Source: Chrysochromulina tobinii
Taxonomy: Eukaryota > Haptophyta > Prymnesiales > Chrysochromulinaceae
NCBI GenBank assembly: GCA_001275005.1
Contig: JWZX01001432.1
Coordinates: forward strand, 1-22,547
DNA length: 22,547 nucleotides
Reading direction: 5' to 3'
Part shown: in pieces, positions 1-22,351 of the stretch
How the letters are laid out: every line of letters starts with the position of its first letter
Numbering within the stretch: the stretch's first letter is position 1
Notes under the pieces: model-generated
Told to the model about the DNA's origin: nothing
The model's database searches: none
What the model saw: only the letters and a program-made list of their open reading frames with translations
Program-made: the position numbers and the translations under genes

Positions 1-45
1 GCCGCCACCGCCGATGCCGCCACCGCCGATGCCGCCACCGCCGAT
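1..45. repeat. 15-bp tandem repeat in RBBP6-like tail
   Basis: Three copies of GCCGCCACCGCCGAT run from the window edge. A degenerate version of the same pattern continues to about position 270. On the minus strand it encodes the Gly-Gly-Ile-rich tail of the DWNN protein. Confidence 0.8.
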
Positions 46-1875
46 GCTTCCGCCTCTGCTGCCACCGATCGTGCCGCCACCGCCAATGCTGCCGCCACCA
101 CCCACGCTGCCACAGCCGCCGATGCTGTTGCCGCCACAGCCGATGCTGCCACCGATGCTGCCGCCCATGCCGCCTCCCATGCTGCCGCAACCGCCAATGC
201 CGCCTCCACCGCCAATGCTGCCGCCACCGCCAATGCTGCCGCCGCCACCGCTGACGCTGCCGCCACCGCCGATGCTACCGCCGATGCTTCTACCGCCACC
301 GATGCTACCGCCGATGCTTCTACCGCCACCGATGCTACCGCCGATGCTTCTACCGCCACCGATGCTCCCGACACCGGCGCTCTCGTCCGCCAACGTGCCC
401 GCCTCAGCCACGGCCAGCTCGCCCCGAGATCTCGCCTCAGCAACAGCCGGCTCGCCGTACTCTTCGCCGACACGCGCTTCGGCTCTGTTGGCATCATGCG
501 CACTGGCCCCCGACACGTTGCCTTCGTCGGCCTTGGTACCCAGTGGCTCCAACGGCGCCGACGGGTCTGGGTGCGCAGCTCCGGCCGCCGCCGACTGCTG
601 CGACGCTGGCCAAGCCGATTGACCTCCGCTCACCTGAACCGAGCTGCCTCGCGGTGGCTCATCCCCGGACAGCGCCTCAGAGGTAGCCAGCGACTCAGAG
701 CGGGGCGGCATCCTGCCACTGGCTACCTCGCCCGCCAGTGCAGGCAGCGGCAAGCCTACCTGTCCTGTGGGCTGTTGTTGTCCATGGGCGTGGGTGCGCA
801 TCTGGGCCTGCAGCAGTGCAAACTGCTCCGGGGTTAGGTTCGCGGGGATGCTGGCGTGCATCGGCAGCGGCGCGTGCTGCTGCTGCTGCATCGCCATCTG
901 CTGCTTCTGCTGCTGCATCCGAATCTGCTGCTGCTGCTGCAGCTGGAGCATTTGCTGCTGCTGCAACTGCATCTGCATCTGCATCTGCTGCTGCTGCGCA
1001 GTTGGCATCGACGCAGCCGCCATCACCATCTGCATCTGAAGCTGCATCTGCTGCTGCTGCTGCTGCTGCATCTGCATCTGCTGCTGCTGCTGCTGCTGCT
1101 GCATCTGCTGCTGCGGCTGCTGCGGCGGCGGCGGCGGCAGCTGCGGCGGCGGCGGCGGCGGCGGCGGCTGGCCCATCGTATGGTGCTCGCCCCCTGCGCC
1201 ACCACCCACCGCCTCGGCTGCCGCTTCCTGCGCCTTGAGCACCGCCTCGCGCAGGGAGCGGTTGGGAAGCACCTTGGTACCGTTGGCTTGCCAGTTGACA
1301 CGACAGCTCGGGCACTCGCCTTTCTGCTTGATGTACTGCTGCAGCGGCTCTTTGGAAAATGAGGTGCCGCAGCACGTGGTGATGACCGCATCGACAAAGA
1401 CGCGCCCGCTCAGAGGATCGATAAGCTTGGTGCCGTACGAGCCACCACCCGCCCGCGCTGCCGCCGCCGCGCGCGCGGCGGCTTCGGCGGCTGCGATGCC
1501 CGGCACTGGGAGCATCGCTGCTGCCGCCACCACGTCCGAGGAGTCGGCATTGCCTGCTTCAGACGGGTCGCCAGTGCCTACATTACCGCTGCCCTGACCC
1601 GCGCCCTCCTCGTCCACGGCTGTGCCAACGATGGCCTCGCGCCGCAGTTGTGGAACGCGCTTGACGAGCACGGCCGTATTGCGAGGGATGAGCGCGTTCT
1701 CCTCGTACACTTCACCCGTCTGCGCGTTGGACAGTTCCAGCACGAACAGGTCCTTGCCCTTGACGATCTTCTGCTCTGCGACGATCTTTTCGCGCAGCTC
1801 AATGAGCGGGATGTGGGGGCCGTCGAATTTCACGCTGAACGTGTCGTTGCTTGACTTGAACTTGTACTGCGCCAT
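1..1875 (-). CDS. RBBP6: DWNN + RING/U-box protein, RBBP6/Mpe1/PQT3 family (3' end outside window)
   Basis: The frame is open from the ATG at 1875-1873 to the left window edge, giving 625 codons with no stop, so the C-terminus is missing. Residues 3-75 form a ubiquitin-like DWNN domain: YKFKSSNDTFSVKFDGPHI, then an ELREKIV helix, NAQTGEVYEENALIPRNTAV and the closing VKRVP. An Ala-rich linker follows. Residues about 148-205 form a RING/U-box-like module with TTCCGTSFSKEPLQQYI, CPSCR and LPNRSLREAV. Next come Pro-rich, Gln/Met-rich (about 235-335), acidic/Ala-rich and Gly-Ser-Ile-rich regions. Known family members are E3 ligases or 3'-end mRNA processing factors (RBBP6 in animals, Mpe1 in yeast). 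Two family features are absent: no CCHC zinc knuckle lies between DWNN and RING, and the first RING Cys pair is missing. It is divergent from the channel gene. Family assignment is firm; exact function is inferred. Confidence 0.85.
   Translation of the reverse strand, partial: MAQYKFKSSNDTFSVKFDGPHIPLIELREKIVAEQKIVKGKDLFVLELSNAQTGEVYEENALIPRNTAVLVKRVPQLRREAIVGTAVDEEGAGQGSGNVGTGDPSEAGNADSSDVVAAAAMLPVPGIAAAEAAARAAAAARAGGGSYGTKLIDPLSGRVFVDAVITTCCGTSFSKEPLQQYIKQKGECPSCRVNWQANGTKVLPNRSLREAVLKAQEAAAEAVGGGAGGEHHTMGQPPPPPPPPQLPPPPPQQPQQQMQQQQQQQQMQMQQQQQQQMQLQMQMVMAAASMPTAQQQQMQMQMQLQQQQMLQLQQQQQIRMQQQKQQMAMQQQQHAPLPMHASIPANLTPEQFALLQAQMRTHAHGQQQPTGQVGLPLPALAGEVASGRMPPRSESLATSEALSGDEPPRGSSVQVSGGQSAWPASQQSAAAGAAHPDPSAPLEPLGTKADEGNVSGASAHDANRAEARVGEEYGEPAVAEARSRGELAVAEAGTLADESAGVGSIGGGRSIGGSIGGGRSIGGSIGGGRSIGGSIGGGGSVSGGGGSIGGGGSIGGGGGIGGCGSMGGGMGGSIGGSIGCGGNSIGGCGSVGGGGSIGGGGTIGGSRGGSIGGGGIGGGGIGGGG
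271..360. repeat. 30-bp perfect tandem repeat (3 copies)
   Basis: Three identical 30-bp units sit at 271-300, 301-330 and 331-360. Each begins GATGCTACCGCCGATGCTTC. The unit is a multiple of three, so it adds whole 10-residue Gly/Ser/Ile/Arg blocks to the minus-strand protein tail and keeps the frame. Confidence 0.9.
877..1170. repeat. CTG/CGG triplet-rich tract (poly-Gln/Met and poly-Pro on minus strand)
   Basis: The plus strand shows long runs of CTG interrupted by CAT, then CGG runs near 1123-1170. Read on the minus strand in the DWNN protein frame these give CAG/ATG (Gln/Met) and CCG (Pro). The same tract makes artificial poly-Leu, poly-Ala and poly-Cys frames on both strands. Confidence 0.85.
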
Positions 1876-2214
1876 GCCGCGAAGTCGCGGGGTGTGCACG
1901 AGGCCTCCCGACGCGTTGGGCGTCGTTTTGATCACACAAAACTTAGGAACAACCTGGGCCGGTTTACGGGTACCTTCAAACGCGCTCCATCCACTTTGTT
2001 GACACTTCCAGGCATGCAATTGGGATCTATGTATTGTTCTAATTTGGGTTGTCTTCTTCCCGTTTCTTTTGCGAACCTAGGTTCCTACACGCTGCAGACC
2101 TGCAGTCGAAAGCTGCAACGACGGTCTGGTTGGGAGGAGAGGAGAGCTTCTCTTGGTATAGGGCCTGCAGCTTCTGACGGTCTGTGCCCTTACCGGCGCT
2201 CGAGCGGGCGGGAG
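1876..2214. promoter_or_regulatory. Divergent intergenic region, probable shared promoter
   Basis: This 339-bp stretch separates the divergent DWNN gene (start 1875) and the channel gene (chosen start 2215). It is visibly less GC-rich than the flanking exons, with T-rich stretches at 1990-2080, as expected for a promoter/5'UTR. A small inverted repeat, GTTTTG (1925-1930) and CAAAAC (1937-1942), is present. I see no clear TATA box. An in-frame ATG at 1894 extends the channel frame back through this DNA, but that would leave only 18 bp between the two genes and its translation looks non-coding. Confidence 0.5.
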
Positions 2215-5960: not shown

Positions 5961-6048
5961 CTACAAGTAGTCGGTGGGATCACAAATTCACACACACATT
6001 CACACACATTCCCTGGGCGAGCGGAATCGTGGCGCTTCTGGTGCTGGG

Positions 6049-6696
6049 ATGTCGACGTCCGTCGTCGACGAGCGTGATTCAGACGGACGGACTGCGCTAC
6101 ACCGTGCGGCAGCGGCGGGGCGCTTGGATCTTGTCGAGGATGCGATAAAGCGCGGAGCAGCCACCGACACCAAGGATGATGGTGGCTGGCGGCCGTTGCA
6201 CTCGGCGGCCTCAGCTGGACACACGGAAGTGGTCGCCTTTCTTCTGGGTCCAAGCGGCGGCGATATCGAGGTCAACAGCCGGGTGGACGGATCCGGCTCG
6301 ACTGCACTCATTTTTGCCGCGTCCAAGGGCCACGCCGACGTGTTGCGCGTGCTGATCGAAGCAAAGGCGGACCTGCTTGCGCGTGACGCGTCCAAAGCGA
6401 CCGCGTTGCATCGCGCCGCTGGTCGTGGGCACGCCCTCATCATACCGATACTCATAAATGCCATGCGTCACCACGCTGGCACCATCGAGGAGCGCGACGG
6501 CAACGGCCAGACGGCCTTCCATGTCGCGTGTACCATGGAGGAATGGAATGCGTGCATCGCACTCGCGGAGGCGGGCGCCGACATCACGACGGTGGATAAC
6601 GAAGGCAACGCAGCAGCCATGTTGCTCTCGCCGAGCCTGCGCAACCAACTCGGGCTCGTGGAGAAGGAAGCGGAAGGCGAGGCGATGCAGGAGTAG
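6049..6696 (+). CDS. PSMD10: Gankyrin-like ankyrin-repeat protein (26S proteasome assembly chaperone PSMD10/Nas6)
   Basis: A 215-residue protein starts at the ATG at 6049; the frame is closed upstream by a TAG at 5968-5970. Ankyrin repeats follow one another: residues 12-44 (DGRTALHRAAAAGRLDLV), 46-80 (GWRPLHSAASAGHTEVV), 83-115 (GSTALIFAASKGHADVL), 117-150 (ATALHRAAGRGH), 153-185 (GQTAFHVACTMEE), then a degenerate cap from 186. The order and the phrases KDDGGW-PLH-AASAGH, AASKGH and ATALHRAAGRG follow gankyrin closely. In animals and yeast (Nas6) this protein binds the Rpt3 ATPase C-terminal domain during proteasome base assembly. Compared with human gankyrin (226 residues) the first ankyrin repeat is missing, so either it was lost or a 5' exon lies upstream. 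Generic ankyrin proteins are the alternative, but the repeat-by-repeat match favours gankyrin. Confidence 0.78.
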   Translation: MSTSVVDERDSDGRTALHRAAAAGRLDLVEDAIKRGAATDTKDDGGWRPLHSAASAGHTEVVAFLLGPSGGDIEVNSRVDGSGSTALIFAASKGHADVLRVLIEAKADLLARDASKATALHRAAGRGHALIIPILINAMRHHAGTIEERDGNGQTAFHVACTMEEWNACIALAEAGADITTVDNEGNAAAMLLSPSLRNQLGLVEKEAEGEAMQE

Positions 6697-10200: not shown

Positions 10201-13200
10201 TCGCCGAGGCGCTCTGCGACGCGTTGCTCGAGCTCTGCTGCAAGCAGCACCCACGCACCGCCGCGGCCGCGCGCGCGTTTGACGAAGCCCTTGAGGGCCT
10301 TGCGGCGTCCGCGGGCGCGCTGGCTGACGAAACGGACGAGCTCGCTGAGCACCTGCTCGCCGTGCACATCTCGCCCACATCTCGCGAGCATCAGCCGGTA
10401 CTCGCCAACCGCTCACTGCTCAAGGTGCAGCCGCTCGATAGCGCGCTCTGATGACCTCTGATGACCTCCGATGACGCCATGGATTGCCTCCCTCATCAGG
10501 TGCTGCTGCTCGATAGCGCGCTCTGGGCGCGCGCGACGCCCAAGGCGCAGCGCCACTGGCTGCAGCGGCTGCATGGGCTGCTGTCGGAGGACGAGGTGGG
10601 CACCTCCAATGCCAGCTACCTTGTGGATGCCGGCATGCTCGACAGCATGATGACGCTGCTGGCTTCGGGTCGGCTGCTCGCGGGTGGATGCCATCTGCTG
10701 GCTGCGCGGCTCGTGCTGCGTACGTGGCACTCAGTCCAGTTCTCGATGGAGGTGACGCGGCGAGTGCATGACTTCCTCGCGGCCACCGCCCGCCCGCAGC
10801 ATGCGGACGTGCAGCTGCTCTGCGTGCGCATGCTCGCGCGCATGGTGGAGCACGCGAGCACTTCGCTCGGGGAGGTGGTTTCGTCACGCGCCGCCGCGAG
10901 CGCTGCCACGCGCGCCGTGGTGGCCACGCCGGCGGCAGCCGGCGAGCCGGCGCCGCCGGCCGAGTCTGCGGGCGTACACGCGGGCGCGAGGGCGGTGCTG
11001 GCGGTACTCCAGCCGCCGCTGCTCCTCTCGTTTCTGCAGCCCGAGCACGGCGGACACAACAAGGTTCTCGTCGCGGCGGTCATGCGCTTGATCGTCAATC
11101 TGCTGCTGCTCTCGCAACGGTACCCGGAGCATGTCACCTTTGCGAAGCAGATGGGCGAGTCCCGAGGGTTTGAGAAGCTCTTCGGCGTTCTCCCGTTGCA
11201 TGCGGGGGTACCGGACGTGTACCTATCCCTCCTCGCGCTCGCCACCAGCCAGACGCTCGACACGGTGGAGAACAAGGCGCCGCCAGAGACGGCGGAGCAG
11301 CTGGCCGAGGCCTGTGCGCTGCTCCAGCTCACCTGATGACCTCTGATGACCTCGGATGGCCTCTGATGACCTCAGATGACCTCAGATGACCTCTGATGAC
11401 ATCTGATGGCCTCTGATGGCCTCTGATGGCCTCTGATGACATCTGATGGCCTCTGATGGCCTCTGATGACCTCTGATGACCTCTGATGACATCTGATGGC
11501 CTCTGATGGCCTCTGATGACCTCTGATGACCTCTGATGGCCTCCCTCATCAGGTGCGCTGCTCCTCGCCACGCCCTCCGCCTCGCCCTCGACGCCCCGAC
11601 GCCCCAGCATCTCGTCGCCGCTCGGCACGGCGCTCGGCTTGCCCCAGGGCGCTCTCGCGCGCGCCGCCGCCGAGGCAGCGGCGCGGCTGCAGCAGCGTGC
11701 GAGCGGCAGCAGCAGCAGCAGCAGCGGCGCAGCCAGTGGCACGCCAAGCGCTCGGGACGTCGCCGAGGATGGCGCGGCTCCGGCGATTGAGTGGATCCCG
11801 ATCAGCCTCGGATTGATAGCCGTCATGTGCCGTGAAGCCCTTCGCACCAAGCGCGCCCCTCCGAGCACGAGCGCCGCATCGAGCGGCTCGACGAGGGACG
11901 AGGGCGCCGTACCGAGCGCCGCCGACGGCTTTGAACTCGTGGGTGCCGAGGCGACGTCCACGGAGCTCACCGTGAGCAGCAGCAGCAGCAGCAGCAGCAG
12001 CCGCGAGGGTGAGGCAGCTGGCACACCAACGGTCGACCGCGCCGTCCCGGTCGACCGCGGCGGCGGCGGCGGCGGCGGCAGCAGCAGCGGCAGCACGGCC
12101 GCTGGGGTGTCGAGCGCACACATGGAACGCGAGCAGGCGGCGGCGAGCGCGTTGCATCTCTTTGTGGCGGTGCTGCCCTCGCTCCGAACACTCGTGATGA
12201 CCTCTGATGACTCCTGATGACCTCTAATGACGCCCTTGATTGCCTCCCTCATCAGGTGTTGCCCTCGCTCCGAACACTCGTGATGACGGCGTCCATCTTC
12301 GAAGGGGTTCTCCTATCTCCCGCCTCCGAGCTCCTAGGCCGCCTGTGTGCCTCGCTCGGTGCTGTGTGGCTGAGCACCTCCGCCTCGGGCGCCGCCGCCT
12401 CGTACGCTGTCACCGCCGTTCCCTCGTCCGCGCATTCGGGCAGCGCGCGCGCGCTGCCGAGCGCCGTGCCGAGCGCCACGACCGCCCCGACCGACCAAGG
12501 TGGCAGCGCCGTACTGGGCAGCTCGACACCGCGCCCATCGACGGACGTGGTCAAGGCAACGGTCGAAGGGGACGCGGCGCTGGATGCCCTCGTGGAGATG
12601 CTCAGTACGGCGCTGCTCGATGTGCCGTCGACGCTCGTCTCAAGCGCCGGCCAGACGAGCCTCGATCTGCTCATGGATCCGCTCCCCTCCCTCGCTCATT
12701 CACGGATCGCCTTTGACGTGTGGCTGCGCTTCCGCTGTCTGCTGATTCGAAAGCTCTTCAGTGCGCTGCACCAGGGGCTGATGAGTCGTTCGGGACCCTT
12801 GACGGAGGCGCATGCAAAGGCGCTTGCGCTCCTCTACCGGCGTGTCCTCCGGTTGCAAGCGATCGTGATCCACCCCGTGGACGCGGCGACGCCATCTCCC
12901 TCGAGCTCCTCGATATCTTCTTCGATCTCATCGAGCACCCCCGACGCTGCCACGTCGAGCACAAGAGACGTCACGTCCCCGGCTGGCTCTGCTGACGCGC
13001 CGCCTCCACCGCCACCAGTGCCCCCAGCACACTCAGCACCCCCGCCGCCCCTGCCGCCTCCACCGACGGCGCCACGGGCACCGCAGGCCCCAGATCAGGC
13101 CTCAGAACAGGCCACTGATCTGCTGCCGCACGCGGAGATGCTCGCCGTCGTCCTCATCCTGCTCGAGCGCGGTGTGGGCGATGAGCGGCACCGGCTCGTC

Positions 13201-16200
13201 GCGAGAGCGGCGGAGGTGGCGGCCAAGGTGGCCGAGAAGAAGGAGGAGGCCAGGGCGGCCGTTTCGAGCCTCGTCTCCTGGGTCAAGGCCAAATCGGGCA
13301 AGTTTGCGGTGCCCGAAACGGCCGCCGAGACGGCGCCCAAGCCGACGCCGAAGCCGACGCGCGTGACCGACGTGCCGACGGTGCTCGCCCTCGCACTCCG
13401 CCTGCTGTGCGCGCGCTTTCCGCCACGCGAGCCGCGTGCGTCTTCGGAGACGTTGCTGCCGCTCCTCGGCGACGTGGCGATGGTTGTGACGACCCTCTCG
13501 ATGGGCCGCGACGAGGAGTCGCTCGACCACGTGGTGCTCGCGCAGCAAAAGGAGGTCGTCGGCGTGCTCGCGTGGCGCCTCTTCTGCCTCTTCGACCACC
13601 CCGACCGCGACGTGCAGCGCGGCGCGATCGCCCAGTGGGTGGCACTGCTCAACACGGCGCGCTGGCTCGAGCGCGAGGCCTTCGGCGAATCGCCCCTCCT
13701 CTTCAATTGGCAGCCGTTGCACGCGGGCAACCTCACGGCCACCTCATACGGGGCCTTCGTCGAGGCGCACCACGCGGATACGGCCGCACTCTTCCGAACG
13801 AGCATCGAGCTCTTCTCGATGCACGAGGAGGAGAGCTTGCGGTCCGAGGCGGATGCTTGGGTGGCGACGTTTACGCGTGAGCAGGGCTCGCGCCTTGCCG
13901 TTGAGCATGGCATGCGACGCGCCGCCGCCAAGTTGCTCGACGAGTGCCGTGCCTCCTCCGCTGGGCTCCTCGAAGGCTGCACCAACGCTTTCGAGCGTCG
14001 GCAGCGCGCCGTCGCGAGCGCCGAGATGGCGCGCGACGCCGACCACAGCCGAGCAGTCGGCCTGACGTTGCAGCGCTACGAGCTCGCCGTGGCCTGCTAC
14101 ACGCCCGCGCCGGACGACGTGCTGCGCCGACCTGTCAAGTGGGCTCTGGACGTGCATTGCGTCTCGGATCAGGGCATGCGTCGCAAGCTAGAGCGGCTAG
14201 TCGAGCCCATTGAGGTGGTGGCACCGCCAGCGCCGCCGCTGAGCGCAGCGCCGTCGCGGGCGCCGAGCTCGCCCGCCACGCCGTTGAAGGCGGTGCCTGT
14301 GACGGCCGCAGCGGCCTCGGGCGCTGTCTCGGGCGAGGCCGACACAGCACCGGCCGACGATCATGGCGCCGCCGCCATCCCCGTCGCCGGCGCCACCCCC
14401 GTCGCCGGCAGGGAGCCCGTGGGGGCGAGCGAGGACAAGGAGGCTGTTGACAAGGAGGCTGCTAACAAGGAGGCTGCTAACAAGGAGGCTGCTGACAAGG
14501 AGGTCCCTGCGAGTGTGGAGCGTAGCTTGACCCTTCCCCGCATGGCTCGTGGGCTGACCTTTTGGCTCGCGCCCAAGATCGAAGCTCCGGTAGGGGTGCC
14601 TGCTGGTCCGCAGGGTGAGCGGCTGACTGAATTGCTCGACTGCCCCTCGCTTCGCAAGCCGTCCGACGTGGTGAGCGTCGCGCACGTTCGCGGCCTCGAT
14701 GCGGCCAAGGCCCTGCTCGCTCTGCTCCCCGGCTGCATTGCCCTCCTGTACGGATACACGCTCGGCACGCCCGATGCCGATGGCTTCCTCACCGCCATCC
14801 CGAGTGGCAACGCTGGCAACAGCGCCGGCGAGGCGCCCACGTGCATCTCGACGCCGTCGGCGGCGGCGGCCTCGGCCGAGGCGTTGCAGCAGCACCTCGC
14901 GCGGCTCGATGACGTGGCCGCCGTGCGGTTCGGGCTCGCGCCCCACGCGCCCAAGTACCGGCGCATCTCGTACATGGAGCTCGCGGAGGTGGCGCGACGG
15001 CGCTACCAGCTGCAGCCCTGGGCCATCGAGATGTGCCTGCATGATGGCGAGACGGTGCTGCTGTACGTGGTCGAGGGGGAGGCGGCGCGCGACGCGCTCT
15101 ACGCACGGCTGCTCGCCATCGTGCCCAAGAACGGCGCCGCCGACGGCCTCGCCGAGCCTTCGTCGGGCGTGAGCGCGCTCGGTACGGCGCGCTCGTTGCT
15201 CTCGTTCACCTCCGAAAAGGCGGAGCTCATCGACGCGTGGCAGCGCGGCGCCACCAACAATTTCGAGTACCTGATGCAGCTCAACACGCTCTCCGGGCGC
15301 TGCTTCGACGACCTGATGCAGTACCCAGTCTTCCCGTGGGTGCTGCGCGAGTACGACAAGCCGGCGATCAACCTTCGCTCGCCCGCGTGCTACCGCGAGC
15401 TCTCGCAGCCGATGGGCGCCCAGACGGACGCGCGGGCGGCACAGTTTCGTCAGCGCTACCTCGACTGGAGCTCGTCGGGCGAGGACACGCCGCCCTTCCA
15501 CTACGGCACCCACTACTCCTCCGCCGCGGCCGTCAGCTCGTACCTAATTAGGTTAGAGCCCTTCTCGGCCCTCCACTGCGCGCTCCAAGACGGGCGCATC
15601 GACCTGGCCGACCGGCTCTTCCACTCCGTCGGCGAGGAATGGAAGCTTGCGAGTGGCGAGAGGGGCTCGGACACGGGCTGCGTCAAGGAGCTCGTGCCAG
15701 AGCTCTTCTACCTATGGGAGGCGCTGCTGAACCTCAACGGCCTCGAGCTCGGCCGTCGGCAGGACGGCACCGCACTCAACCACGTGGCACTGCCGCGCTG
15801 GGCGCGCGGCTCGGCGTGGCGGCTCGTGCGCACCCTCCGGCAGGCGCTCGAGGCGCCGCACACGAGCCGCGAGCTTCCACAGTGGATCGACCTCATCTTC
15901 GGGTGCATGCAGCAGGGCGAGGCCGCCGTGGGCGCTCTCAACGTCTTCCTGCCCGTCACGTACATCGGAGCCGTCGATCTCGCGAGCCTTGACGAAGGGC
16001 GGCGCGCCGCGGCCCTGTCGCAGATCCAGCTCGTCGGCCAGACGCCCCAGCAGCTGTGGACCAAGACGCCCCATCCGGCCCGCCAGGCGGCCGCCGCGCT
16101 CAATACGGTGCCGCTCATCCCCCTCCTTGTCGCCCTGGCCGCCAACCAGCACCTCCTCGCCACCCGAGAGACCTCGAGCGAGCCGCCGGCCAAGCTGCCC

Positions 16201-17529
16201 GTGCTAGGGATCCTAGTGAGCCCGGGCGGCGAGCGCATCACGCCCTTGCCGCGCCAATCGGCCGCGCTGCCCCGGGCGTCACTCATCGTACGCTGGGGCT
16301 TTGCGGATGGCAGCCTGCGTTTCTACCGGCGTGAGAAAGGGAGCGCCACCTTCTTCACGCCCAACGCCGCCGCGCAGCCGACGCCCTCGCTGCTCATGGC
16401 GCGGCTGCACGGCGGCGAGGTGATCGATGCATGCTGCGTTTCGTCAGACTCGGGATGGCTCGCGACGGGTGACCGCACCGGCGGCGTGGCCGTGTGGCGC
16501 CTCAAGCACCGGCAGACCGGCGTGGCGATGCGCGCGCACGGGCGGCTCGCGGGGCATGCAGCCCCTATCGTGCACCTCGCCATCTCCGTGGCGCACCGCG
16601 CCCTCGCGAGCGTGGCCGCAGACGGCGTGATGCTCCTCTGGGACCTGCGCAAGTGCCTCCTCATGCATGCGCTGCGCGTGGCTCCGGACACGTCGGCGCC
16701 TCTCGGCGCTGGCGCCGCGCGCAGTGCAGGGGGCGGAGGGGGCGTGCACGGCAGCGGCAGCGGCGGCGGTGGCGGCGGTGGCGGCGGCGGCGGTGGCGGC
16801 GGCGGTGGCAGCGGCGGCGGTGGCAGCGGCGCCGGTGGCGACGGCGGAGCAGGATGCGGTGTCGGAGGCCTGAGTGGCGGTGGCGAGCCGTGCGCGTCGT
16901 CTCGCGGCGCCGTGGCGGGCGCCGTGGCGGCGCTGTGTATGATCGAGGAGACGGCGGAGACGCTCGTGGCGACGCCCACCCAGCTGCAGCTTTGGTCGGC
17001 CAATGGCTCGTTGCTGGCGGCGAGTCGCGATGCCTTCCCCCGCCCCACGTGCCTCACGCTGCTCCGCACGCCTGAGTGGATGGTCGAGACACTGCCGATG
17101 GTGGCGAGCGGACACTTGGACGGCACGGTTCGCTTCTGGACCATCCGCGAGCCTCAGCAGGCGCCGACGCTGCCCGAGCTCCCCCGCGCGCTCTCGCGCC
17201 TGCCGGTGCGCGCCTTTGGCCTGCCTGCGTGGGAGCTGAGTGAGCTCCGTCCTCTGCGCCTCGAGCGCGCCATCTCGAGCGCCGAGGGTGCCGCGGCGGT
17301 GGCAGTCACAAGCGTGGGCGTCGGCGAAGGCTACGAGAAGCTCCTCTGGACCGCCGATGCCAGCGGCGGCGTGCGTTCCTGGCGCGTTCCCGGCGCTGAG
17401 GCCGCTGGGGTGGATGGAAGCACCAAACCGCCGCCGCCGCCGCCGCCGGATGATAGCCCATCCAGACCCAGGCTCGTGAGCGTGAGCATGAGCGAGGCCA
17501 GCGAGAAGGTGACGATGATGCAGTTTTGA
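7214..17529 (+). CDS. Giant BEACH-WD40 protein, LYST/LvsB-like, five exons
   Basis: Exons 7214-10039, 10128-10424, 10500-11313, 11553-12169 and 12256-17529 join in one frame to 3275 residues; intron phases are 0, 0, 1 and 0. The N-terminal half is Ala/Leu-rich helical, armadillo/HEAT-like. A concanavalin A-like domain lies at about 636-810 (FAFETADG, WHHVCLVHERR, LGWHLGPLFVAE). The pre-PH motif KWALDVHCVSDQGMRRKLER (about 2145-2165) precedes a PH-like domain (about 2402-2477, RRRYQLQPWAIEMCL). The BEACH domain spans about 2506-2797: NNFEYLMQLNTLSGR, DLMQYPVFPWVL, FHYGTHYSS, VKELVPELFYLWEALLN, LPRWARGSAWRLV, QWIDLIFGC. WD40 blades follow (about 2904-3220; GVMLLWDL, GHLDGTVRFW). BEACH proteins act in vesicle fusion/fission and lysosome-related organelles; LYST is the Chediak-Higashi protein. 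LYST-type rather than neurobeachin-type is my inference from PH-BEACH wording. Poly-Gly insertions interrupt the ConA and WD regions. Confidence 0.9.
8101..8184 (+). repeat. 12-bp in-frame tandem repeat (7 units) in BEACH gene
   Basis: Three units of GCATTCACAAGC are followed by four of GCAGGCACAAGC. They encode alternating HSQA then QAQA in the N-terminal region of the BEACH protein. The frame is preserved and the region is probably a flexible linker. Confidence 0.9.
9466..9556 (+). repeat. GGC-rich tract, poly-Gly/Glu insertion in ConA-like domain
   Basis: A run of GGC codons broken by GAC and GAG codes for Gly with occasional Asp/Glu. It sits between the strand GYVNADEL and the conserved LGWHLGPLF, which are adjacent in ordinary BEACH proteins. 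It looks like a loop expansion. Confidence 0.85.
10040..10127 (+). mobile_element. Introner intron 1 (88 bp) in BEACH gene
   Basis: Phase-0 intron from GTGCGC (10040) to CATCAG (10127). It holds an upstream copy of the exon sequence GCGCCTGATGACGGACGAGC (extending 3 bp further), repeated just after the acceptor. The element core then carries TGATGACCTC-like decamers and ends GATTGCCTCCCTCATCAG. Splicing restores LNLRLMTDEHADFG. Without splicing the frame stops at 10087. Confidence 0.85.
10425..10499 (+). mobile_element. Introner intron 2 (75 bp) in BEACH gene
   Basis: Phase-0 intron from GTGCAG (10425) to CATCAG (10499). The 5' end of the intron (GTGCAGCCGCTCGATAGCGC) duplicates the start of the next exon (GTGCTGCTGCTCGATAGCGC) with two differences and continues about 6 bp. 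Two or three TGATGACCTC decamers follow, then the family end GATTGCCTCCCTCATCAG. Splicing gives LLKVLLLDSALWARA. Confidence 0.88.
11314..11552 (+). mobile_element. Introner intron 3 (239 bp) with expanded decamer array
   Basis: Phase-1 intron from GTGCGCTGCTCC (11314) to CATCAG (11552). The same 12 bases GTGCGCTGCTCC restart the next exon at 11553. The interior is almost wholly decamer repeat. The 3' end is CCTCCCTCATCAG as in the other three copies, but the GACGCC...GATTG segment is replaced by decamers. Splicing gives EACALLLATPSAS. Confidence 0.85.
11333..11540 (+). repeat. 10-bp tandem array inside intron 3 (about 21 units)
   Basis: Units are CTCTGATGAC and variants (CTCTGATGGC, ATCTGATGGC, CTCAGATGAC, CTCGGATGGC). 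Order analysis shows a higher-order pattern, with ATCTGATGGC recurring at intervals, so blocks of several units were duplicated together. The array is not CRISPR: there are no spacers. Confidence 0.95.
12170..12255 (+). mobile_element. Introner intron 4 (86 bp) in BEACH gene
   Basis: Phase-0 intron from GTGCTG (12170) to CATCAG (12255). About 32 bp of exon beginning GTGCTGCCCTCGCTCCGAAC is repeated after the acceptor with a single difference (GTGTTG). TGATGACCTC-like units and GATTGCCTCCCTCATCAG follow. The near-perfect duplication makes this one of the younger insertions. Splicing restores FVAVLPSLRTLVMTASIF. Confidence 0.9.
14434..14508 (+). repeat. 15-bp tandem repeat, KEA-rich linker in BEACH protein
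   Basis: Five units related to GACAAGGAGGCTGCT encode DKEAV, DKEAA, NKEAA, NKEAA and DKEVP. They lie between the MRRKL pre-PH motif and the PH-like domain. Charged helical linker, in frame. Confidence 0.85.
16729..16860 (+). repeat. GGC/GGT tract, poly-Gly insertion in WD40 region
   Basis: More than 35 nearly consecutive Gly codons broken by Ser, Ala and Asp lie between the WD blade ending LLWDLRKCLLMHALRV and the next blade (VAALCMIEE). This is a long disordered loop on the propeller. Confidence 0.85.
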
Positions 17530-18495: not shown

Positions 18496-18499
18496 TTAC
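18441..18499 (-). other. Possible alternative last intron of SKP1-LRR gene
   Basis: The annotated stop TAA (18498-18496) overlaps a consensus donor, GA/GTAAGTTT. A pyrimidine-rich stretch and GATCAG acceptor lie 59 bp on. Splicing there would replace the last residue with about 43 basic and Cys-containing residues, ending at TGA 18313-18311. The other introns of this gene do not use GTAAGT donors, so both ends remain possible. Confidence 0.3.
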
Positions 18500-21400
18500 T
18501 CCATTTTTGTCAGCGCGCCATTAACGCGCAGGGCGTCGGCGATTGCAGTGATGCCCTCTGCAGTGTAGGTGCCGCTGACGCGGCCGGATGGATGTTGGAC
18601 CACTCCGCAGAGAGCGGTTTTGGAGAGGTCCAGGCTCGTCAGCCCGCCGTTGACGCGCAGAGCGTCGGCAATCGCTGTGATGCCCTCTGCAGTGTATGTT
18701 CCTTGGCCATATTCATTGATGCCGCACAGGTGGTTGCCTGAGAGGTCCAGCTGCAATACCATTCAAAGCAAGCAAGGGTTAGAACATAGAAAAGGCTCAT
18801 CTAGGGGGGTCAGAAAGCGAGCACCTGTGTCAGGGCGCCTGTGACAACGGCCTGTGACAGGTCCGACGCCAGCAGGATTGCATCAGGCGGCTTGAGGTTC
18901 TGCTTGGAGAAGTCAGCGGTGGTCTGGTCGCGCCGGATGCCGCAGAGCGAGATGCCCTTCTGCTTGGCGACCTCAGCGAGCATCTTGGCGGACTTCTTAT
19001 TGAGCCGATTGCCCAGGAGGTTGGTCACCGTCAGCCCGCCGTTAACGCGAAGGGCGTCGGCAATCGCTGTGATGCCCTCGGCGGTGTAGGTGCCACCGCG
19101 ATAGATCACTCCACAGAGTGCGTTGTGCGAGAGGTTCAGCTGCAATACCATTCAAAGCCAAGGCAAGGGTTAGAGAACAAGAAAGGCATCTCGAGGGGGG
19201 CAGAAAGCGAGCATCAGCGAGCACCTGTATCAAGGCGCCATTGACGCTGATCAAGGAGGCGATAACAACCAAAGAGGCAACGCCAATATTCTTGCGAGAG
19301 AGGTCGAGCGTCTCGACGGGGTCGGTGCCCTTGAGCTTCTTGACAGAAAGAGCATACCCGTCCAAGTTCACCTATGCACGAGGGACCTCCAGAAGTCAGT
19401 GCATGTGCTGAGGGAGCACAGCTGAGCTCAGCGTACCTCCGTCAGCGCGCCTGTGACAACGGCCTGTGACAGGTCCGACGCCAGCAGGATAGCATCGGGC
19501 GGCTTGAGGTTCTGCTTGGAGAAGTCAGCGGTGGTCTGTTCCCGCTGAATGCCGCAGAGAGAGATCCCCTTCTGCTTGGCGACTTCAGCGAGCATCTTGG
19601 CGGACTCCGCATCCAGTTGATTGCGCAGGAGGTTGGCTACCGTCAGCCCGCCTGTGACGGCCACCATGGCCGCCACTGACTTTGCTCCCACTGGACCGAT
19701 GCCGTTGTCCTCGAAGTTGAGCGACGCGAGCTTGATCTCTTTGTTGCTCTTGATGGCCTCGCAGACTGCGTTTACGCCCTCATCCCTGAGGCTGTTGAAC
19801 GACAAATTCAGGGCCGTCAGCGCGCCGTTGACAACAAGAGCGGCGGCGAGCTCCTTGATGCCCGTCATGTCCCTACCACGGTTAGTGAGATGATTTTCGG
19901 ACAGGTCGACGCTCGTCAGCGCGCCGTTGACGCGAATGGCGTTGGCAATCGCTGTGATGCCCTCGGCGGTGTAGGTGCCTTGTTGGTTGTGAAAGCTGAT
20001 GTCATTCCAGATGCCACACAGATGGTTTCTGGAGAGGTCGATGCTTGTCAGCCCGCCATTGACGCGCAAAGCGTCGGCAATCGCCGTGATGCCCTCTGCA
20101 GTGTAGGTGCCGCCGTAGGCGTTCACTCCGCAGAGTGAGTTGTTGGAGAGGTCCAGGCTCGTCAGCGCGCCTGTGACAACGGCCTGTGACAGGTCTGACG
20201 CCAGCAGGATCGCATCGGGCGGCTGGATGCGCTTGTTGTGGAAGTCAGCGGTGGTCTGGTCGCGCTGGATGCCGCAGAGCGAGATGCCCTTCTGCTTGGC
20301 GACCTCAGCGAGCATCTTGGCGGACTCCGCATCGAGCTGATTGCCCAGGAGGTTGGTCACCGTCAGCGCGCCGTTGACGCCAAGAGCGGCGGCGAGCTCC
20401 TTGACGCCCGTCATGTCCGTGCCGTAGTTTGTGAGGTGATTTCCGGACAGGTTGATGCTCGTCAGCCCGCCTGTGACAACGGCCTGTGTCAGGTCCGACG
20501 CAAGCAGGATCGCATCAGGCGGCTTGAGGTTCTGCTTGGAGAAGTCAGCGGTGGTCTGGTCGCGCTGGATGCCGCAGAGTGAGATGCCCTTCTGCTTGGC
20601 GACCTCAGCGAGCATCTTGGCGGACTCCGCATCAAGCTGATTGCCCAGGAGGTTGGTCACCGTCAGCGCGCCATTGACGCTGATCAAGGAGGCAATCACA
20701 ACTGAAGAGGCAACGCCAAGAATCTTCCACGAGAGGTCGAGCATCTCGACGGGGTCGGTGCCCTTGAGCTTCTTGACAGGGAGAGCAAACCCATCCAAGT
20801 TCACCTATGCGTGAGGGACCTCCAGAAGTCAGTGCAAGAGGGAGCACATCTGGGCTGAGGAGCTCAGCGTACCTCCGTCAGCGCGCCGTTGACGCCAAGA
20901 GCGGCGGCGAGCTCCTTGACGCCCGTCATGTCATCACCGTAGTCGGTGAGATTGTTATCGGACAGGTCAACGCTCGTCAGCGCGCCCATGGCAGGAATGA
21001 GATACGAAATGAGCATGACCGCAGGCCCACGGAGCCCCTTATTGCACAAGTCCAGCACTGGCAAGGTGTCCTCCCGCATGTGCTGCACCGGAATGCCGAA
21101 TGCCACACCTGAGCCCGCACATGCGACGGCTGCGATCGTCAGCTTCAACGGTGCCTCTCCGTCGCCTGAGATGCAGCTGTGCAGAGCAGCCTTAGCAGTT
21201 CCACGAAGCAACGAAGGCGGCGGCAGCGGAACGTCAGCAAAGCCGAACGGGGGCGGCGGCGGAGCGTTAGCAAAGCCGCCGAACAGGCCGCCATCAAAAG
21301 GATTTGGGGCACCAAATGCATCAAAGCCGCCGAAAAGGCCGCCACCAAAATGATTCGCCTCCTGGACGCCCAGATTTGCGGCCCGTACTTTCGCCACGTC

Positions 21401-22351
21401 CACCACAAAGCCGTAGCCATGGAGGCGCGCCAGCCCTGGCAGCATCCGCCCCGCTAAGGCCGCGTCCCCGGGACGGCCGGCCTCGATGAGCAGCTCAACG
21501 TCCAGGTCGGTGATCTCTTCCAGATGTGTGGGTGCCGGCTGCCCGCGGCCACGGCACAGGCGCGAGCAGAGGGCATGCCGCGACAGTGCACGCCAAAACC
21601 GATTCACGCCCTTGAGCTCGCACAGCGTGGCCACGTCCACCATTTCCAGGGCAGACTCCCTCGCATCCGTAGTGGCTGGCACTCCCGAGAGCGAGGGCTG
21701 CCGCAAAGGTGCGAGTGGTGCGGTGGAGCTGGCCACGCCGAGCTGCTGCGGCGCCTCGTAGCCTTCTGGCAGAAACGCCGACTCAGCGAGTGCCGCCTTG
21801 AGCTCGGCGCCATCAAAGTCGCTACCCGCGCCAAGCAGCGCACGGAGCTCGTCAGCATTCTTGCCGTTGACCCAGGAAGCGATGACAGACTGATTGTGCT
21901 CGAGCAGCATAGGGGCATCCAGAAACAGGGCGCCCTCGACGTGTTCCATGAGCTGCAACAGCGAATGCTCATCAGAACTCGGCGACAATGGATTGCCGGC
22001 GTAACCCTCGTATCGGAGCTCCTCAAACGACTTGTTTTGGTGTTGCTCCATCCGATGCACACCGGGGACGCCAAGTGCGCCCAGCATCTCCGGCATGCGA
22101 ACCAGCGCGCGAAGCGTCGAGGCTGTGACAATGGGCACCGGATACACGCCGTCCTCGGAGCTGGCATCGTCCATGAGATCCTTCAAATGACCAGCGAGTC
22201 GAGCCACCTCGCGAGACATCGTGACCTCTTCTCCGTCTCGCGCTCGCACGCGGATTGGCTCATCATCACGTGTGGCCTTCTTCGCCGCGGGCGCCTCTTC
22301 CTGCTCCTCGGCGTGCGATCCAGCTACGATCGTCTCGCCCGAGAGGCTCAT
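18496..22351 (-). CDS. SKP1-like + F-box-like + leucine-rich-repeat fusion protein, five exons
   Basis: Minus-strand exons 22351-20873, 20804-19437, 19371-19225, 19139-18825 and 18750-18496 join, all at phase 0, into 1187 residues. Residues 31-190 resemble SKP1: IRVRARDGEEVTMSREVA, a PVPIVTASTLRALV segment, then LLQLMEHVEGALFLDAPMLL and WVNGKNADELRALLGAGSDF, the counterpart of SKP1's GKTPEEIRKTFNI region. Residues about 230-267 (ESALEMVDVATLCELKGVNR, then FWRALSRHALCSRLC) fit the L..D..L....V.R.W..L F-box pattern. A Gly/Phe/Pro linker (about 345-395) follows. From about 440 there are some 20 ribonuclease-inhibitor-type LRRs (GALTSLDLSNNSL, EGITAIADALRVN), with a recurring KQKGISLCGIQRDQTTADF cassette. 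The start at 22351 is preferred over an upstream in-frame start at 22537 because the SKP1 part begins soon after. SKP1 bridges Cullin-1 and F-box proteins; here they are one chain. Cullin binding is inference. Confidence 0.82.
18751..18824 (-). other. Intron 4 of SKP1-LRR gene (74 bp)
   Basis: Phase 0, donor GTGCTC at 18824, acceptor GGTATTGCAG ending at 18751. It joins GALTQ to LDLSGNHL. It is closely related to intron 3 of the same gene. Confidence 0.85.
19140..19224 (-). other. Intron 3 of SKP1-LRR gene (85 bp)
   Basis: Phase 0, donor GTGCTC at 19224, acceptor GGTATTGCAG ending at 19140. It joins GALIQ to LNLSHNAL. It shares TTGAATGGTATTGCAG and CTAACCCTTGC with intron 4. Confidence 0.85.
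19372..19436 (-). other. Intron 2 of SKP1-LRR gene (65 bp)
   Basis: Phase 0, donor GTACGCTGAGC at 19436, acceptor GCATAG ending at 19372. It joins GALTE to VNLDGYAL. It is nearly the same sequence as intron 1, including ACTGACTTCTGGAGGTCCCT. Confidence 0.87.
20805..20872 (-). other. Intron 1 of SKP1-LRR gene (68 bp)
   Basis: Phase 0, donor GTACGCTGAGC at 20872, acceptor GCATAG ending at 20805. It joins GALTE to VNLDGFAL, so the LRR pattern runs on without a break. Without splicing the frame stops at once (20866-20864). Confidence 0.88.

Follow-up and report, generated by a model that had tools for sequence, protein, structure and literature searches.

A SKP1-like, F-box-like, and leucine-rich repeat fusion in Chrysochromulina tobinii as a candidate single-chain SCF-type receptor

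SKP1-like, F-box-like, and LRR parts on one polypeptide

A contig of the prymnesialean haptophyte Chrysochromulina tobinii (JWZX01001432.1, assembly GCA_001275005.1; the window analyzed here comprises its positions 1 to 22,547) carries a gene whose predicted product joins a SKP1-like domain, an F-box-like segment, and a long array of leucine-rich repeats (LRRs) in a single chain. The protein is probably a natural adaptor-plus-receptor of the type used by SKP1–cullin–F-box (SCF) ubiquitin ligases, with both functions combined in one molecule. The fused cassette is present in dozens of copies in the genome, is joined to two different LRR scaffolds, and is under purifying selection.

The initial annotation of the window had placed such a fusion at positions 18496..22351, and the gene was recovered with the same coordinates and on the same (minus) strand. 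It starts with an ATG at 22351, terminates with a stop codon ending at 18496, and comprises five exons that are all in phase 0. From the N terminus, the SKP1-like domain is followed by a linker, the F-box-like segment, a conserved block, a linker rich in Gly, Phe, and Pro, and LRRs that run from about residue 432 to the end of the protein (Table 1), a layout that differs from that of free-standing SKP1, which consists only of the core fold and its C-terminal helices. The evidence that the three parts belong to one protein, as annotated, is independent of how the exons are joined in the window, because paralogs hold all of them in one uninterrupted frame. In all six paralogs tested, Pfam LRR matches share an open, intron-free frame with the SKP1-like and F-box-like parts (in L004, 698 residues are uninterrupted by a stop), which rules out an error of the gene model as the source of the fusion.

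The SKP1-like domain

The predicted fold of the window protein matches SKP1 complexes with a Foldseek probability of 1.00 (among the best 50 matches listed). The match spans residues 31-184, in good agreement with the annotated SKP1-like span of residues 31-190, and predicted models and profiles both point to a POZ fold of the SKP1 kind. The GK motif named in the annotation is present (as GK..EL/I) and is followed by a DF motif. An alignment of the family comprised 74 sequences, namely exon 1 of the window gene and 73 of 120 listed relatives (two of the three lists of relatives comprise the best 120 of 246 and the best 120 of 182 matches). Among the 34 PDB matches of a family profile, 33 are solved SKP1 structures (best E-value 8.9e-10), so that the profile and structure searches that had been suggested for this domain both return SKP1. 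With the sequence of the window protein alone, the matches are weak (best E-value 0.0011); 32 of 33 are SKP1 if p19 is counted as such. The Pfam Skp1 model matches 30 of the 74 relatives at E-values up to 1 (best 0.0022) and reaches 18.1 bits in the paralog L004. The model of a representative of the second clade (see below) aligns to residues 5-160 of the SKP1 chain and is predicted to include C-terminal helices of the SKP1 type. An insertion past the third helix (Table 1) occupies a place where insertions are found in many Skp1 sequences (PMC1257465).

Relatives of the cassette appear in public records under names such as nlrc3, nod3, RanGAP-like, and surface antigen-like, as would be expected if they were ordinary LRR proteins whose likeness to SKP1 and F-boxes is due to chance. 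This is very improbable in view of the family profile, the fold match, the shuffle and reversal controls described below, and the support from the second clade; moreover, one relative from C. tobinii (P0012) is itself named s-phase kinase-associated protein. For the SKP1-like part, the fold match and the family profile rule out a chance likeness. Two other identities were rejected. Membership among the NACHT- or NB-ARC-bearing LRR proteins (NLRs) is contradicted by the lack of matches to either domain in exons 1 and 2 (Pfam, E-values up to 10). A viral or phage origin found no match in phage records, and none of 56 pattern matches in viral contigs was confirmed; a library of viral folds returned only SKP1/BTB-like entries (best E-value 4e-3).

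The F-box-like segment

Neither Pfam nor the PDB names an F-box in the segment that follows the SKP1-like domain, and it was therefore compared with the native F-boxes of the same genome, represented by 30 loci that match PF12937. A profile of the family (137 of 150 sequences, in which the motif is present and the length sufficient) aligned to these F-boxes with an hhalign score of 27.5 (probability 75%) over 34-35 columns. None of 100 column-shuffled F-box profiles reached this score (best 15.06); reversed profiles scored 9.6 and 11.0, and five control windows elsewhere in the protein 7.6-8.1, against 27.7 for residues 205-330. The score was 29.2 (probability 85%) when both clades were pooled and 21.9 (probability 44%) for the second clade alone, and again no shuffled profile (0 of 100 in each case) attained either value. 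Helices predicted at residues 228-235, 240-244, and 251-265 fit the three-helix F-box and agree with the F-box-like helices annotated at about residues 230-267; in the second clade, they are modeled with a predicted local distance difference test score (pLDDT) of 69-92.

If this segment were no functional F-box, the SKP1-like domain could serve as a BTB-type receptor on CUL3. The genome encodes, in one full frame on contig C691, a cullin that we read from its sequence as CUL3-like, and the silence of Pfam and PDB on F-boxes would also fit this explanation. The common architecture of BTB proteins, a BTB domain followed by a linker and C-terminal repeats (PMC1257465), is likewise similar. We nevertheless consider a CUL3 receptor quite unlikely, because, among the matches listed (the best 50 for structures), the structure and profile searches point to SKP1 and not to BTB domains of the CUL3 type, and because the adjoining segment matches the F-boxes of the same genome, whereas none of the five other windows does.

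A conserved cassette on two LRR scaffolds

The F-box-like segment was matched at 77 places in the genome, and at 64 of them a SKP1-like piece lies upstream. In a second clade, represented at L075 (contig C2133), L076 (contig C205), and 18 further places, the same cassette of SKP1-like and F-box-like parts is combined with BspA-like LRR_5 repeats, and the records of C. tobinii name two of the matches in this clade surface antigen-like. The only organisms named among the matches listed are C. tobinii and a Chrysochromulina genome labeled Chrpa1.

The cassette is under purifying selection. Among 17 cassettes, the ratio of nonsynonymous to synonymous substitution rates (dN/dS) was below 1 in all 135 pairs (of 136) that fell within the counted range of dS, with a median of 0.47 and a maximum of 0.80; the window cassette yielded values of 0.28-0.53 with the 16 others. 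Some relatives carry additional SAP domains, inserted near the position of the linker (residues 191-227 of the window protein) that connects the SKP1-like part to the F-box-like part, or BRCT domains, which may indicate nuclear roles. Two others (P0097 and P0134) carry a PF09070 domain, which we take to be PFU, the ubiquitin-binding domain of PLAA/Doa1 proteins.

A putative single-chain SCF-type receptor

We propose that the SKP1-like domain, with its POZ fold and predicted C-terminal helices, would receive the F-box-like helices in cis across the linker of about 40 residues. The POZ face of this module would then bind a CUL1-type cullin, and targets would be held by the LRR array for ubiquitination. 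The cassette would thereby form a fixed chassis, present in dozens of copies and combined either with LRRs of the LRR_6 type or with BspA-like LRR_5 repeats, giving rise to a repertoire of dedicated receptors that would be independent of free SKP1.

Several observations weigh against this interpretation. The Pfam Skp1 match of the window protein remains below the cut-off (E-value 0.066; 13.5 bits versus 22.3), and the Pfam F-box models match none of 13 slices. A PDB profile search with the F-box slice found no F-box, and none is among the 25 of 56 Pfam families listed for the 74 relatives. In the model of the window protein, pLDDT drops from 71 to 38 across the C-terminal helices of the SKP1-like domain (the helix at residues 182-189 lies within a stretch below 50), and the F-box-like region attains only 58-73, depending on the block. 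A single sequence of the second clade retrieves neither SKP1 from the PDB nor Skp1 or F-box from Pfam, and the profile of this clade alone matches SKP1 weakly (probability 32%). At the thresholds used, no SKP1-like piece accompanies 13 of the 77 F-box-like places, and for 14 of 123 SKP1-like pieces no F-box-like piece follows downstream. In addition, the position of N108 in human SKP1, presumably a contact to CUL1, is not conserved in the family, and none of the cullin genes in the genome could be assigned to CUL1.

The divergence of the SKP1-like domain below the Pfam cut-off and the change at the N108 position are also what would be expected if both domains were real and cullin binding had been lost, leaving an LRR sensor or scaffold that self-associates via its POZ fold or a decoy that competes with SCF ligases; the SAP or BRCT domains of some relatives, with their possible nuclear roles, would also be compatible with such a function. 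This alternative is rather unlikely, albeit the strongest of those considered: purifying selection extends over the whole cassette, beyond the POZ core, C-terminal helices of the SKP1 type are predicted in the second clade, and an F-box beside a SKP1-like domain would be of no obvious use to a mere dimerizer.

The components with which a single-chain receptor would cooperate are partly recognizable in the genome. Three cullin genes exceed the Pfam cut-off, namely the CUL3-like gene, a CUL4-like gene on contig C2249, and a gene on contig C128 with nearly equal scores to CUL4, CUL3, and CUL1; two weak pieces are located on contig C2240. An RBX1 exon is present (69% identity over 39 residues), and 45 of the 103 F-box matches detected exceed the cut-off. 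No canonical SKP1 was recovered from the 53-Mb assembly in searches based on human SKP1, ASK1, Pfam PF01466, or a codon pattern; the PF01466 result alone does not show absence and, because the assembly is a draft, we make no claim of loss. The best match of human SKP1 in the genome is a member of the fusion family, and that of ASK1 is a different, divergent frame at L041. The latter (positions 1408-2193 of L041, 261 aa) contains a divergent SKP1-like stretch with 31% identity over residues 6-127 of ASK1 (E-value 0.005).

It is doubtful that the covalent SKP1–F-box chassis on its two scaffolds constitutes a set of receptors, perhaps immune-like, that can dispense with free canonical SKP1 and may have largely displaced it. 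A role in sensing or defense is a guess. The Chrysochromulina parva virus CpV-BQ1 is reported to encode four E3 ubiquitin ligases as well as six F-box proteins (PMC12085832), and it is possible that this virus is an opponent of such receptors.

Gene structure and LRR array

Table 1. Features of the fusion gene in the window (nucleotide positions in the window; residue numbers refer to the predicted protein)
Feature	Position	Strand	Evidence or remark
Entire gene (five exons; product of 1,187 aa)	18496..22351	-	GT-AG borders; frame open to the stop codon
Exon 1: SKP1-like, F-box-like, linker, first LRR; 493 aa	20873..22351	-	
SKP1-like domain, residues 31-190	21782..22261	-	
Insertion past third helix, residues 89-118	21998..22087	-	At most 12 of the 74 sequences in the alignment have residues here; modeled with low confidence
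Linker joining the SKP1-like part to the F-box-like part, residues 191-227	21671..21781	-	pLDDT <50 over residues 176-224
F-box-like three-helix segment, residues 228-267	21551..21670	-	hhalign to 30 same-genome F-boxes
Conserved block past the F-box-like segment, residues 268-327, in both clades	21371..21550	-	
Gly/Phe/Pro-rich low-confidence linker ahead of LRRs, residues 333-372	21236..21355	-	pLDDT <50; sequence
First LRRs, within exon 1 (about residue 432 onward)	20873..21058	-	Sequence
Exon 2: main LRR array	19437..20804	-	Pfam LRR_6 (E-value 2.5e-8), LRR_1 (E-value 7.2e-8)
Exon 3: LRR; within an exon-plus-intron duplication	19225..19371	-	
Exon 4: LRR	18825..19139	-	
Exon 5: LRR and stop codon	18496..18750	-	

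The LRR array stands behind the F-box-like segment, as in FBXL proteins. The Pfam matches confirm the repeats, but a strict pattern yields 12 repeat starts instead of the roughly 20 LRRs annotated. The array grew through recent internal duplication: an exon together with its intron is duplicated (19230-19403 with 20663-20836; 90% identity over 174 nt), and a 249-nt stretch occurs in four copies, three of which are 83-88% identical to the fourth. The view that the array is recently diversified therefore applies to its duplication but not to adaptive change, because dN/dS was below 1 in 14 of 16 repeat pairs (the others being 1.02 and 2.10, the latter with few changes), and with no consistent sign across the pairs, positive selection on the LRRs is unsupported.

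The Gly/Phe-rich stretch ahead of the LRRs has the look of FG repeats, and a sub-threshold match to the Nup98 GLEBS motif was found at residues 101-117 (22001-22051, minus strand; E-value 0.0085-0.022). Exon 1 had no matches to NCBIfam or to models of defense systems, and no RNA family reached its gathering score.

The same contig encodes a DWNN-domain protein (window 2-2019, minus strand; PF08783, E-value 1e-20); we assume that this domain is typical of ubiquitin ligases of the RBBP6 type. The plus strand carries genes for an ion channel that has a long tail and two stretches matching PF07885 (1894-5784) and for a protein with a BEACH domain and WD40 repeats (12217-17529; PF02138, E-value 2.6e-94). 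An ankyrin protein (5974-6696) adjoins the ion channel gene.

Comparison with known systems

SCF ligases classically exemplify how one adaptor is shared among exchangeable receptors. An adaptor that is hard-wired to each receptor across dozens of genes and on two scaffolds would render the importance of this exchange testable and would offer natural designs for one-chain degraders; if the interpretation is correct, it would also provide a function for many algal proteins whose current labels are nlrc3, nod3, surface antigen-like, or hypothetical. The main text of the C. tobinii genome paper does not contain the terms ubiquitin, F-box, leucine, NLRC3, or Skp1 (PMC4580454).

The window protein shares its LRR array with NLRC3 and NOD3 but has, in exons 1 and 2, no match to the domains that define NLRs. 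BTB-type receptors of CUL3 (BTB-BACK-kelch proteins and their kin) also combine a POZ fold with substrate-reading repeats on one chain, and adaptor and receptor are therefore merged in them. In C. tobinii, by contrast, the POZ fold resembles that of SKP1, probably including its C-terminal helices, and precedes an F-box-like segment.

FBXL proteins such as SKP2, FBXL3, and TIR1/COI1 operate with free SKP1 in SCF ligases. Like the protein described here, they have an F-box followed by an LRR array as the substrate reader, but their SKP1 is separate, shared, and exchangeable, whereas the chain of C. tobinii has a SKP1-like domain fused to its N terminus and an F-box below the detection limit of Pfam.

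The initial annotation knew of no SKP1–F-box–LRR polypeptide. This holds for natural chains, none of which was found among the matches listed in the open literature (subscription papers lay outside the scope of the search), but an engineered one exists. In the improved auxin-inducible degron of fission yeast, Skp1 is joined by a 16-residue linker to TIR1, and the fusion is more effective than TIR1 alone at depleting its target (PMC3048574). This construct is man-made, whereas the chain of C. tobinii is natural, with a linker of about 40 residues, strongly diverged parts, dozens of copies, and two scaffolds. It nevertheless has SKP1, a short linker, an F-box, and LRRs in the same order on one chain and is active in cells, which makes it, by analogy, the strongest outside support for a one-chain SCF receptor.
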